A DNA stretch of 64,000 nucleotides from Agromyces agglutinans (GTDB lineage: Bacteria > Actinomycetota > Actinomycetes > Actinomycetales > Microbacteriaceae): contig NZ_WJIF01000003.1 of NCBI RefSeq assembly GCF_009647605.1, positions 409,988-473,987 of the forward strand, written 5' to 3'. The notes beneath the pieces were generated by a model. That model was not told where the DNA came from, searched no databases, and saw nothing but the letters and a program-made list of their open reading frames with translations. This document shows positions 22,530-26,904 of this stretch, piece after piece; position 1 is the first letter of the stretch; each line of letters opens with the position of its first letter. Made by a program: the position numbers and the translations under genes.

Positions 22530-22587
22530 TTGCCGTGCACGCCATCGCCGGATACCATTCGAATCGATTCGAGTCGAATCGATTCGA
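22530..22587 (+). promoter_or_regulatory. MFS permease promoter with double palindromic operator
   Basis: -35 TTGCCG (22530-22535), 17-bp spacer, -10 TACCAT (22553-22558), then two copies of TCGAATCGATTCGA (22559-22572 and 22574-22587), 15 bp apart and covering the start point. The core matches the operator at the LacI gene near 12.09 kb, not the GTTAATCGTTTAAC site of the divergent sulfatase promoter 40 bp away. Confidence 0.8.
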
Positions 22588-22628
22588 GCGGTCACCCCGA
22601 TCCCACACCTCAGCGAGGAGCAGGCCGA

Positions 22629-23918
22629 ATGGCGCACGAGGCATCCGTCGATAGCGTTGACGCCGTGAGCGACCGACCAGCGCAGCGCAGCGATCGGCAC
22701 TCGCGCGCGCCCCACGGGTCGCGCGCCTGGCGCAACGCGGTCTTCGCGGTGTTCTTCCTCAGCGGGCTGAGCATGGCGACCTGGGTCGCGCGCATCCCCG
22801 CGATCCGCGACTTCACCGGGCTGTCGACGCAGGGCGTGGGCCTCGTCATCCTCGGCATGTCGATCGGCTCGATCCTCGGGCTCGTCGTGGCGCCGCTCCT
22901 GCTCGCCCGCTGGGGCACGCGCGTCGGCGAGATGCTCACCCTCGGCATCGTCTCGGTCGGCCTGCTGCTCATCGGCCTCGGCGGATCGGTCACCCCGTCG
23001 GTCGCGCTCGTCGTCACGGGCCTCGCGCTCTTCGGCTTCGGCAACGGCGCGGTCGACGTCATCATGAACGTCGACGGAGCGATGGCCGAGAAGGAGATCG
23101 GCAAGACGCTGATGCCGCTCATGCACGCGTTCTTCAGCTTCGGCACCGTCGCCGGCGCCGGGCTCGCGGTCGTCGCGTCGGCGATCGACCTCGCGGTCAT
23201 CTGGCACTTCGGCGCCGTGGCCGTGCTCATCGCGATCGCGATCGTGGTCGCGGTGCGCTTCGTCCCCCGCGACTCGTCGTCGTCCGACGCGAAGCAGGCG
23301 GATGCCTCGGCCCCGCGCCGCCCGTGGCGCGAGCGCCTGCGAGAGAGCCTGTCGGTCTGGGCCGATTCGGGCCTGCTGCTGATCGGCGCGATCATGCTCA
23401 GCATGTCGTTCGCCGAGGGCAGCGCGAACGACTGGATCGCCCTCGCCGCCGTCGACGGCCACGGCTACGACCAGACCACGGGCGCCCTCGTGTTCACGGT
23501 GTTCACCATCTCGATGACGGTCGCGCGCGTGCTCGGCGGCCCGGTGCTCGACCGATTCGGCCGCGTCGCCGTGCTGCGCGTGCTGTCGGCGACCGGCGTG
23601 GTCGGGCTCGGCCTGTTCATCTTCGGCACCGAGCCGTGGATGATCGTCGTCGGCACCGCGCTCTGGGCGGTCGGCTGCTCCCTCGGATTCCCGGTCGGCA
23701 TGTCGGCCGCGGCCGACGACCCGCACAAGTCCGCGGCCCGGGTCTCGGCCGTCGCCATCATCGGGTACTGCGCGTTCCTCGCCGGCCCGCCGCTGCTCGG
23801 CTTCCTCGGCGAGCACTTCGGCCTGCTGAACGCCCTGCTCGTGCTCATGGGCCTGATGGTCGTCGCGGGCCTGCTCGCGCCGGCCGCACGCGAGAAGTCC
23901 CGCCGCCCCGCGGCGTGA
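22629..23918 (+). CDS. MFS transporter (FucP/YbjJ-like)
   Basis: A 429-aa major facilitator with about twelve transmembrane segments; the first follows a polar 38-residue N-terminus. FLSGLSMATWVARIP and the GTRVGEM loop resemble the YbjJ/fucose-permease group, so a sugar or related small solute may be carried (inference). ATG at 22629 has AGGAG 8 nt upstream. A GTG at 22665 preceded by TAGCGT and a 7-nt gap offers a second, leaderless start. Regulation is readable: two LacI-type palindromes cover the upstream start point. Confidence 0.88.
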   Translation: MAHEASVDSVDAVSDRPAQRSDRHSRAPHGSRAWRNAVFAVFFLSGLSMATWVARIPAIRDFTGLSTQGVGLVILGMSIGSILGLVVAPLLLARWGTRVGEMLTLGIVSVGLLLIGLGGSVTPSVALVVTGLALFGFGNGAVDVIMNVDGAMAEKEIGKTLMPLMHAFFSFGTVAGAGLAVVASAIDLAVIWHFGAVAVLIAIAIVVAVRFVPRDSSSSDAKQADASAPRRPWRERLRESLSVWADSGLLLIGAIMLSMSFAEGSANDWIALAAVDGHGYDQTTGALVFTVFTISMTVARVLGGPVLDRFGRVAVLRVLSATGVVGLGLFIFGTEPWMIVVGTALWAVGCSLGFPVGMSAAADDPHKSAARVSAVAIIGYCAFLAGPPLLGFLGEHFGLLNALLVLMGLMVVAGLLAPAAREKSRRPAA

Positions 23919-23926
23919 GCCGCGCC

Positions 23927-23932
23927 TAGACT
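23927..23932 (+). promoter_or_regulatory. Leaderless -10 box for nucS operon
   Basis: TAGACT, 6 nt, GTG at 23939; only about 8 bp after the MFS stop. Confidence 0.55.
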
Positions 23933-23938
23933 CGAACG

Positions 23939-24634
23939 GTGCGCCTCGTCATCGCCCGCTGCTCCGTCGACTACGCCGGCCGTCTCTCCGCGCACCTGCC
24001 GCTCGCCACGCGCCTGCTCATGGTCAAGGGCGATGGGAGCCTGCTCGTGCACTCCGACGGCGGCAGCTACAAGCCCCTGAACTGGATGAGCCCGCCCTGC
24101 GTGCTCGAGGTCGTCGAGCCCGACGACGAGCAGCAGGCGGCCGGCATCGCCGAGATCTGGACCGTCACGCACAAGAAGACCGCCGACCGGCTCATCGTGT
24201 CGATCCACGAGATCCTGCACGACACCAACCACGATCTCGGCGTCGACCCCGGGCTCGTGAAGGACGGCGTCGAGGCGCACCTGCAGCAGCTGCTCGCCGA
24301 GCAGATCGAACTGCTCGGCGACGGGCACCGGCTCGTGCGGCGCGAGTACATGACCGCGATCGGTCCGGTCGACATCCTCGCGACGGATGCCTCGGGCGCG
24401 AGCGTCGCCGTCGAGCTCAAGCGACGCGGCGACATCGACGGCGTCGAGCAGCTGACCCGCTACCTCGAGCTGATGAACCGCGACCCGCGGCTGGCGCCGG
24501 TCACCGGAGTGTTCGCGGCGCAGGAGATCAAGCCGCAGGCTCGCGTGCTCGCCGAAGACCGGGGCATCCGCTGCGTCGTGCTCGACTACGACGCGATGCG
24601 CGGCGTCGACAGCGGCGTGCCGACGCTGTTCTGA
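23939..24634 (+). CDS. nucS: Endonuclease NucS/EndoMS
   Basis: Mismatch-specific endonuclease that provides the non-canonical mismatch repair of actinobacteria lacking MutS/MutL; it acts with the beta clamp. At 231 aa with [21 protein letters not shown] at the N-terminus and the RecB-like nuclease motif (GPVDILATD, then [20 protein letters not shown]) it matches the family throughout. The GTG follows a TAGACT box by 6 nt. The stop overlaps the ATG of the restriction-endonuclease-like gene (TGATG), so the two are coupled, an unusual neighbour for a housekeeping repair gene. Confidence 0.96.
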
Positions 24635-25443
24635 TGTTCGTCACCACCTCCTACGGCGACGACGACGTCGTGCCCGCGGGCATCCGCGATCGGTACGAAT
24701 GGATCGAGACGGGCAGCGCCGCCGCGATCCTGAAGGCGCTCGCTCCGCACGAGTGGGCCGACCTGCTGAGCGTGCTCGACGGCTTCGCGCTGGCGCCGAA
24801 CCGGTGGCTCGTCGCCGGCGGCAACAAGGGCGACATCGCCGCCGACCTCGACGCGCGCTTCCGGCGCCTCGGCTGGCTCGAGACGCGCATCGACGTCGCC
24901 GTGCAGGGCTACCTGTTCACCGACTTCGCGAAGAAGGGCACCGACCGCGTCGCGCGGTCGCGCGCCGAGGGCGAGTCGCTGTACCTCGAGGGCTACCGCG
25001 TCGACAACCACAAGGGCCGCATGATCGTCGACATCGAGTGGAACGCGAAGGACGGCAACCTCGACCGCGACATGGCGGCGTACCGCTCGTGGTACGAGTT
25101 CGGGCTGATCGACGGCGCCGTGATCATCACGAAGGACCGCAAGCCCCTGCTCGACCTCGCCCGCGAGGTCTGGACCCGCCACCAGGCGACGGTGCCGGTC
25201 GCCGAGCGCTCCGCCAAGCTTCCCGTCGACCTCACCTCGACGACGACCACGTCGTTCGACAAGGCGACCGAGCGCATCCGACGCGGTGGGGCGGGCACCT
25301 GCCCACTGCTCGTGATCGGCGTCGGCCGCGAGGCGTGGGACGGCTCGGACTTCACACTCGCGCCCGAGACCGACCCGGCCGGCGACACCCCATTGGCCGG
25401 TTTCGACGACGAGCTCGCGACCGGCGACGGGTCGGCCGGGTGA
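24634..25443 (+). CDS. BglII/BstYI-family restriction endonuclease-like protein
   Basis: A 269-aa protein resembling type II restriction enzymes of the BglII/BstYI family, which cut GATC-centred sites. The central block is diagnostic: D124 in GYRVDNHKG, then D133-I-E135-W-N137-A-K139-D140, followed by LDRDMAAYRSWYEFGLIDGAVIIT. Known members share this EWN-KD-FDRDL layout at the PD-(D/E)XK-type active site. It is followed 29 bp downstream by an MT-A70 methyltransferase, the expected partner. Specificity is unknown: AGATCT is present in the window (for example 24153-24158), so cognate DNA would need protection. Last 30 residues are disordered-looking. Confidence 0.8.
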   Translation: MFVTTSYGDDDVVPAGIRDRYEWIETGSAAAILKALAPHEWADLLSVLDGFALAPNRWLVAGGNKGDIAADLDARFRRLGWLETRIDVAVQGYLFTDFAKKGTDRVARSRAEGESLYLEGYRVDNHKGRMIVDIEWNAKDGNLDRDMAAYRSWYEFGLIDGAVIITKDRKPLLDLAREVWTRHQATVPVAERSAKLPVDLTSTTTTSFDKATERIRRGGAGTCPLLVIGVGREAWDGSDFTLAPETDPAGDTPLAGFDDELATGDGSAG

Positions 25444-25459
25444 CGTCGGCGGCCTCGCC

Positions 25460-25465
25460 TACACT
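25460..25465 (+). promoter_or_regulatory. Leaderless -10 box for MT-A70 methyltransferase
   Basis: TACACT, 7 nt, ATG at 25473. A separate promoter for the methyltransferase would allow expression before the nuclease. Confidence 0.5.
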
Positions 25466-25472
25466 CGGATCG

Positions 25473-26141
25473 ATGACCTCCCCACTCCGCGCCGACGTCG
25501 AGCCCACGCCGTTCACCCCGCTGCCGTGGGTCGACGGGGGGTTCAAGACGGTGCTCGCAGATCCGCCGTGGCGGTTCGCGAACCGCACGGGCAAGGTCGC
25601 CCCCGAGCACCGCCGCCTCGACCGGTACGACACGATGAGCCTCGACGAGATCAAGGCGCTGCCGCTCGACGAGCACACCGCGACCGACTCGCACCTCTAC
25701 CTGTGGGTGCCCAACGCGCTGCTGCCCGAGGGCATCGAGGTCATGCAGGCGTGGGGCTACCGGTACGTCTCGAACGTCGTGTGGGCCAAGCGCCGCAAAG
25801 ACGGCGGTCCCGACGGCCGCGGGGTCGGCTTCTACTTCCGCAACGTCACCGAGCTGATCCTGTTCGGCGTCAAGGGCCGCATGCGCACGCTGCCGCACGC
25901 CCGCAGCCAGGTCAACATGATCGAGACGCGCAAGCGCGAGCACTCGCGCAAGCCCGACGAGCAGTACGCCTTCATCGAGTCGTGCTCGCCCGGACCGTAC
26001 CTCGAGTTGTTCGCTCGGCACGCGCAGCCCGGGTGGCAGGTGTGGGGGAACGAGTCCGACGTCGAAGAGGTGCGCGGCAAGGTGCACCGGGGCTACGAGG
26101 GCGGTCCGATCGAGGCTCCGGCCGCCGTCGAGTACGCCTAG
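25473..26141 (+). CDS. MT-A70 family DNA adenine-N6 methyltransferase
   Basis: A 222-aa S-adenosylmethionine-dependent methyltransferase. The catalytic DPPW (30-33) sits in KTVLADPPWRF, followed by YDTMSLDEIKALP, LYLWVPNALL and GRMRTLPHARSQVNMI..REHSRKPDEQY, all landmarks of the MT-A70 family, whose bacterial members methylate adenine in DNA. It lies after a BglII-like nuclease gene, so the pair is likely a type II restriction-modification system. ATG at 25473 is preceded by a TACACT box; upstream in-frame codons overlap the nuclease gene out of frame. Confidence 0.9.
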   Translation: MTSPLRADVEPTPFTPLPWVDGGFKTVLADPPWRFANRTGKVAPEHRRLDRYDTMSLDEIKALPLDEHTATDSHLYLWVPNALLPEGIEVMQAWGYRYVSNVVWAKRRKDGGPDGRGVGFYFRNVTELILFGVKGRMRTLPHARSQVNMIETRKREHSRKPDEQYAFIESCSPGPYLELFARHAQPGWQVWGNESDVEEVRGKVHRGYEGGPIEAPAAVEYA

Positions 26142-26202
26142 CCGCGAGGCGATCCGCGCCGACGCCCTCCGATTCCCGAGCATCATTCAGGAATTGGGGG
26201 CC

Positions 26203-26208
26203 TAGGAT
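26203..26208 (+). promoter_or_regulatory. Leaderless -10 box for HAD phosphatase
   Basis: TAGGAT, 6 nt, GTG at 26215. Confidence 0.55.
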
Positions 26209-26214
26209 GTCACG

Positions 26215-26904
26215 GTGACTTCGACCCTCTCCACCCAGCCGGCCCCCGCGCCCACGCGCACCTGGTCGGCCGTGCTCTTCGACCTCGACGGCACCATCGT
26301 CGACTCCGAGACCGAGATCACGAACTCCCTCGCCCACACGTTCAGCTCCATGGGCCTGCCGGTGCCCGACGACGAGGCGCTGCGCGCGTTCGTCGGCCCG
26401 CCGCTGCTCGACAGCCTCCGCATGACGGCCGGCTTCACCGACGCCGACGCCTGGGAGGCGCTGAACGTCTACCGCGACCACTACGCCGACCACCTGCTCG
26501 CCTCCCCGGTCTTCCCGGGCGTCGCTGGGGTGCTCGAGCGGCTGCACGCCGCCGGCGTGCCCGTCGCGCTCGCGACCTCGAAGCCCGAGTCGATGGCCCG
26601 ACGCGTGCTCGATCACGCCGGGCTCGCGTCGTACTTCACGGTGATCGCGGGTGCGAGCGACGACGAGGAGCGCAGCACCAAGGCCGACGTCGTCGCCCAC
26701 GCGCTCGGCGGCCTGCAGGCGCTCGGCATCGACACGAGCCACGCCGTCATGGTCGGCGACCGCGGTTACGACACGCTCGGCGCCGCGGCCAACGGCGTGC
26801 CGACCATCCTCGTCGAGTGGGGCTACGGCTCCCCCGCCGAGGCATCCGACGCCCTCGCGGTCGTGCACTCGGCCGACCAGCTGCGCACCCTGCTGCTCGG
26901 TTGA
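26215..26904 (+). CDS. HAD family phosphatase (phosphoglycolate phosphatase-like)
   Basis: A 229-aa haloacid-dehalogenase hydrolase. Motif I is FDLDGTIVDSE (Asp nucleophile), motif II LATSKPES, and motif III/IV MVGDRGYDTLGAAANG. The small helical cap between motifs I and II is of the subtype seen in Gph, PpaX and beta-phosphoglucomutase. The exact phosphoester substrate cannot be assigned. The GTG start is leaderless in appearance. A perfect 26-bp palindrome follows the gene. Confidence 0.88.
   Translation: MTSTLSTQPAPAPTRTWSAVLFDLDGTIVDSETEITNSLAHTFSSMGLPVPDDEALRAFVGPPLLDSLRMTAGFTDADAWEALNVYRDHYADHLLASPVFPGVAGVLERLHAAGVPVALATSKPESMARRVLDHAGLASYFTVIAGASDDEERSTKADVVAHALGGLQALGIDTSHAVMVGDRGYDTLGAAANGVPTILVEWGYGSPAEASDALAVVHSADQLRTLLLG

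Follow-up and report, generated by a model that had tools for sequence, protein, structure and literature searches.

The described systems closest to the locus analysed here are Nph3I of the Nitratiruptor phage NrS-3, BstYI and BglII. According to an excerpt of the report on Nph3I (PMC10734518), R.Nph3I (NRS3_08, pfam09195) cuts RGATCY in vitro and is blocked by 6mA in the site, M.Nph3I (NRS3_07) converts RGATCY to RG(6mA)TCY, with a preference for GGATCC noted, and the recognition sites within the nuclease family differ, being AGATCT for BglII and RGATCY for BstYI and R.Nph3I. The methylase of the BglII system, M.BglII, is named as an N4-cytosine methylase in the section of PMC2890505 drawn on here. 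In the stretch of 64,000 nucleotides that was analysed (the window), a gene for a BglII/BstYI-family nuclease (R) and a gene for an MT-A70 methylase (M) stand directly behind nucS, which encodes the mismatch endonuclease NucS. Like Nph3I, this pair has a PF09195 gene and, immediately behind it, an MT-A70 gene, in the same order and on one strand (NrS-3, L102). Unlike Nph3I, which is carried by a temperate Nitratiruptor phage, it is found on a chromosome behind nucS, and its R shares only about 30% identity with R.Nph3I (28–33%, varying with the alignment). The nucleases BglII and BstYI belong to the same Pfam family as the window R, but M.BglII is an N4-cytosine methylase whereas the window M is of the N6-adenine MT-A70 type. 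In the literature searched, which was mostly open-access, no report was found of a BglII-family R with an MT-A70 M beside nucS. As set out below, R and M very probably form a compact, mobile Type II restriction-modification pair, specific for a GATC-centred site, that has been inserted between nucS and the HAD-family hydrolase gene behind it and in which NucS is not involved.

The genes nucS, R and M are consecutive and all lie on the plus strand. The nucS gene (23,939–24,634; 231 aa, GTG start) is assigned by its conserved locus and by matches of its product to the NCBIfam equivalog of endonuclease NucS (NF002876, E 5.4e-117) and to Pfam NucS_C and NucS_N. R (24,634–25,443; 269 aa), a Type II restriction endonuclease gene of the BglII/BstYI family, matches Pfam Endonuc-BglII (PF09195; E 9.5e-22, 77.9 bits against a curated cut-off of 26) and has no match in NCBIfam, PADLOC or PHROGs. 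Its ATG at 24,634 shares one base with the nucS TGA (TGATG). After a gap of 29 bp, M (25,473–26,141; 222 aa, ATG at 25,473) encodes a DNA N6-adenine methyltransferase of the MT-A70 family with a DPPW motif, which matches Pfam MT-A70 (PF05063; E 1.3e-30, 107.1 bits against a cut-off of 23.9) and PADLOC MTase_II (E 2.7e-115). These Pfam, NCBIfam and PADLOC matches bear out a first-pass annotation of the window, which had placed the same three genes at these positions and had pointed to the overlap of the nucS stop with the start of R. An MFS transporter gene (22,530–23,918) precedes nucS, and M is followed by the HAD-family hydrolase gene (26,215–26,904, plus strand; 229 aa; Pfam HAD_2, E 3.8e-30), which, judging by gene order, is resident to the right of nucS throughout the genus loci compared below. 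R and M are thus adjoining genes of a Type II endonuclease family and of a DNA methylase, the make-up of a Type II restriction-modification system. Separately, the C-terminal domain of NucS has weak PADLOC matches to candidate defence families (PDC-S11, best E 2.6e-5; PDC-S18; PDC-S02), which probably reflect a common nuclease fold.

The neighbourhood of nucS was compared across the genus, in which nucS was found in 59 of 60 genomes, the window genome included. Another 32 nucS loci of the same genus (L009–L037 and L071–L073) were opened, and in every one of them the HAD gene directly follows nucS, with 38–171 bp from the nucS stop to the first aligned HAD residue and with neither R nor M at the junction. 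Upstream of nucS, an MFS match was found in 28 of the 32, at a distance of about 0.7 kb in some; the remaining four show none within the short stretch opened, and for G050 a longer stretch (L074) has it. The nucS–HAD neighbourhood is old within the genus. Because the same-genus junctions are empty, the insert in the window spans from the nucS stop to about position 26,172, where the conserved promoter region of the HAD gene starts. The inserted segment (24,635–26,172, the left edge being the nucS stop and the right edge approximate) is about 1.54 kb long and holds R and M only. In the spacer of one relative (L033, genome G049), several near-copies of the nucS 3′ end are present, forming a short tandem duplication at the stop of nucS.

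R was found in four of the 100 genomes searched, all four within the genus (60 of the 100), and M matches were found in 14 of the 60 genus genomes. Of these M matches, 15 in total, eight are short, weak ones of about 55 residues, and seven genomes have only such a match. In the three genus relatives with R (G025, G032 and G056), R and M keep together and are on a different contig from nucS, behind which HAD stands in all three (L071–L073).

Beyond the genus, R and M travel together independently of their neighbour genes, again as expected of a Type II restriction-modification system. A PF09195 match was found in 20 other genomes of a 396-genome phylum sample, in one of them (G234) below the family cut-off. 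MT-A70 is present in ten of the 20, and all ten copies immediately adjoin the PF09195 match. Among the ten loci without MT-A70, five (L078, L086, L087, L088 and L092) have an open frame of more than 300 codons with an SPPY motif within about 3 kb, as, going by the motif alone, might be expected of N4-cytosine methylases; an SPPY frame is also present in one MT-A70-bearing locus (L095). Additionally, eight plasmid or phage R loci were opened. In six of them an MT-A70-type M adjoins R, namely on the plasmids Roseivivax pTHAF40_e, Roseovarius pSMR3-2, Roseomonas p5 and Comamonas pZM22-2 and in Mesorhizobium phage Lo5R7ANS and Nitratiruptor phage NrS-3, and in the other two (Acinetobacter and Dyadobacter plasmids) the neighbour of R is a DPPY “DNA adenine methylase” and not MT-A70. 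Plasmids of Xanthomonas and Rhizobium, found via M, also carry the R and M pair. No nucS is annotated in the plasmid and phage stretches that carry the pair, and a tblastn search of the eight R loci with NucS gave no match.

Some of these pairs are close to that of the window. On the Roseivivax and Roseovarius plasmids, R is 50% and M 73–74% identical to the window proteins, but the arrangement differs in that M faces R (convergent). The closest R found is that of Arthrobacter sp. AL12 (L053; 59–60% identity, with M at 80–81%), where R likewise precedes M on one strand. This locus differs from the window in that one M is preceded by two tandem R genes and that a gene for the large subunit of a phage terminase lies alongside. 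The tandem BglII-family genes (L053, 6,001–8,445) are 60% and 39% identical to the window R, and the locus may be a pair carried by a prophage, its nuclease gene having been duplicated.

The DPPW motif of M occupies residues 30–33 and is invariant in nine aligned sequences, the window M included. Relatives of M appear in 335 phage records and 165 plasmid records, most of them less than 60% identical, whereas among 50,697 phage and 72,556 plasmid records only 4 and 8, respectively, hold a relative of R. Since M relatives are so much commoner than R relatives, M-type enzymes often occur without this R. Three side observations concern the surroundings and ends of such methylases. In three genus relatives (L005, L006 and L007), the C-terminus of M is about 70 residues longer than that of the window M, and includes a stretch, missing from the window M, that by its motif is presumably helix-turn-helix-like. 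In the genus relative G032 (L006, 5,696–11,389), one MT-A70 gene is clustered with a BglII-family nuclease gene and an AAA_5/McrBC-family pair, which looks as if one methylase covered two different cutters. Moreover, M relatives (67–75% identical) adjoin AAA_5 and McrBC-family genes in all four actinobacterial plasmids opened (L104–L107, from Arthrobacter, Kocuria, Herbiconiux and Mycobacteroides), and no BglII-family gene is annotated in the 3-kb flanks of these M relatives.

The R protein has the features of an intact member of its family. Its start aligns with the starts of homologues from Roseivivax (MFETNTY, annotated) and Arthrobacter sp. AL12 (MQFTDSY, predicted). Residues D124, E135, W136, N137, K139 and D140 are invariant across 18 aligned R sequences, the window R included, and position 133 is D or E in all 18, as read from the one-letter rows. 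D124, D133 and E135 make up a putative active site that is acidic and conserved. As a single sequence, R has no match among solved structures up to E 10. A profile of the 18 sequences matches the solved structure of BstYI (1sdo, E 2e-4) as its sole meaningful solved match, and BglII itself is absent from the solved-structure matches of this profile. In the printed profile alignment, as we read it, D124, D133 and E135 align with D, E and Q of BstYI. A structure model of R built from four sequences is too poor (mean pLDDT 42) to inform on its fold.

As to the recognition site, comparison with Nph3I supports a putative GATC-centred palindrome with N6-adenine methylation, most likely RGATCY, for the window pair. 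The GATC-centred sites that the first-pass annotation had expected are consistent with this assayed relative. The exact site of R is a prediction, because R is so distant from R.Nph3I. The same distance, together with the diversity that the family already has (AGATCT for BglII as against RGATCY for BstYI and R.Nph3I; excerpt of PMC10734518), would suit a variant of the main reading in which the pair is a drifted relative of Nph3I and recognises another site, GATC or another GATC-centred palindrome. On the other hand, M, which is obliged to cover the site of R, is 69% identical to M.Nph3I over residues 21–196, its core (63% over the full alignment). A different site is a minority possibility, to be kept in mind but unlikely.

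The insert carries no mark of how it arrived. No junction repeat beyond chance was found (the longest common word is 8 bp, a length reached in 122 of 1,000 shuffles), nor was an integrase, a transposon or a target duplication found between nucS and HAD. Foreign composition is likewise absent, the GC3 of R (0.959) and of M (0.955) both matching that of the surrounding host genes. RGATCY is not depleted in the 64-kb window (54 observed against 53.4 expected, 1.01); in about 168 kb from the 32 same-genus loci, 105 sites are observed against 116.2 expected (0.90). For AGATCT, the ratio of observed to expected is 0.88 in the window versus 0.47 in the same-genus loci. Site avoidance as a sign of long residence was considered and rejected, since the window shows no avoidance of RGATCY, and the lack of depletion does not argue for the system having been in use for long. 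The absence of depletion, of foreign composition and of a junction repeat does not speak for a partnership with NucS.

Regarding expression, a TANNNT box at a gap of 6–7 nt precedes 17 of the 3,393 ATG or GTG triplets on both strands of the window, and nucS, M and HAD are among the 17. Specifically, leaderless-type −10 boxes are read on the plus strand 6 nt before the nucS GTG (TAGACT, 23,927–23,932; a putative box that matches the consensus), 7 nt before the M ATG (TACACT, 25,460–25,465; the probable M promoter, and the leaderless box already described in the first-pass annotation) and 6 nt before the HAD GTG (TAGGAT, 26,203–26,208), where most relatives have the same or a similar box. In front of R, neither a TANNNT box at leaderless distance nor an evident ribosome-binding site can be read. 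R lacks a promoter box and its start codon overlaps the nucS stop; the nucS promoter therefore probably drives its transcription, as part of the nucS message, with re-initiation at TGATG as the probable mode of translation, whereas a separate leaderless promoter probably serves M. TGATG overlaps can allow translational re-initiation. In the PvuII system, the regulator gene overlaps that of the endonuclease, and this overlap turned out to be no sign of translational coupling, according to the part of PMC2997769 drawn on here. The earlier description of nucS, R and M as one operon thus holds for R, which can share the nucS transcript, but not readily for M, which, like HAD, has a box of its own.

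The missing promoter box and ribosome-binding site of R, as well as the undiminished number of RGATCY sites, would also fit a reading in which R is poorly expressed or silent and only M works, as a solitary methylase with a passenger nuclease. This reading is a variant of the main one and does not exclude it. The R frame, however, is intact and carries the block conserved among its homologues, re-initiation at TGATG can serve its translation, and a promoter-like box lies upstream at nucS. We consider a silent R rather improbable.

A role of the pair in repair fares far worse. The first-pass annotation had offered, beside a restriction-modification system settled behind a repair gene, the possibility that the BglII-like nuclease and NucS act together in a repair process that responds to methylation. 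Spelled out for mismatch repair, M would mark the old strand, and NucS and R would act on the unmarked new strand. What favours such coupling is the adjacency and the one-base overlap in the window genome, and the fact that NucS strand discrimination is listed as an open topic in the portion of PMC8228993 drawn on here. The annotation had found the overlap hard to dismiss as chance; a single shared base suggests at most shared expression in one genome, not joint function. When positions were compared, neither R nor M was near nucS in any of the 58 other nucS-bearing genus genomes, and the nearest R or M match sharing the nucS contig is about 117 kb off (G002). The survey of relatives that the annotation had proposed therefore turned up no co-occurrence in the genus, which is one of the two outcomes that it had named as jointly refuting the link. 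In the phylum sample, too, NucS is near R in none of the 20 other genomes with PF09195, many of which are drafts, so that joins at contig breaks are possible in individual genomes. NucS_C is above the cut-off in only five of these 20, on another contig except in G209 (350 kb off), and weaker NucS_C matches in five more are also on other contigs. The phage and plasmid pairs, with no nucS beside them, likewise speak against coupling. R and M as a NucS-dependent repair module were rejected on these gene neighbourhoods, and joint action of R and NucS in mismatch repair is highly improbable. A version confined to this genome, in which R made from the nucS message would help to remove M-unmarked DNA near NucS breaks, with methylation as the cue for the old strand, deserves equally little credence.

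Taken together, these findings favour a restriction-modification pair behind a repair gene, the other option that the first-pass annotation had raised. Observation covers the identity of the genes, the vacant site in relatives and the R and M homologues paired elsewhere without nucS. R and M are an ordinary kind of restriction-modification pair, found behind nucS in one genome, and the link to nucS looks like an accident of insertion. From sequence we infer the activity of the window pair, its exact site and its route of expression, and propose the following course of events. A compact pair of R and M would have entered the short spacer between nucS and HAD. R, made from the nucS promoter through re-initiation at TGATG, would cut double-stranded DNA that is unmodified at its site, a palindrome centred on GATC and most likely RGATCY. 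M, made from its own leaderless promoter, would methylate the adenine of the same site to give RG(6mA)TCY. Since M would mark the site of R, the host chromosome would be spared and incoming phage or plasmid DNA would be cut. NucS would play no role in restriction.

The nucS neighbourhood in this genome is thus most likely not a repair operon, and the locus gives no lead on how the NucS pathway distinguishes the old strand from the new, which the portion of PMC8228993 cited above treats as an open topic. It is of modest regulatory interest, in that a restriction enzyme apparently depends on a housekeeping repair gene for its promoter and its methylase has a separate leaderless-type promoter. 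For the bacterium itself, RGATCY is a candidate site for a restriction barrier.
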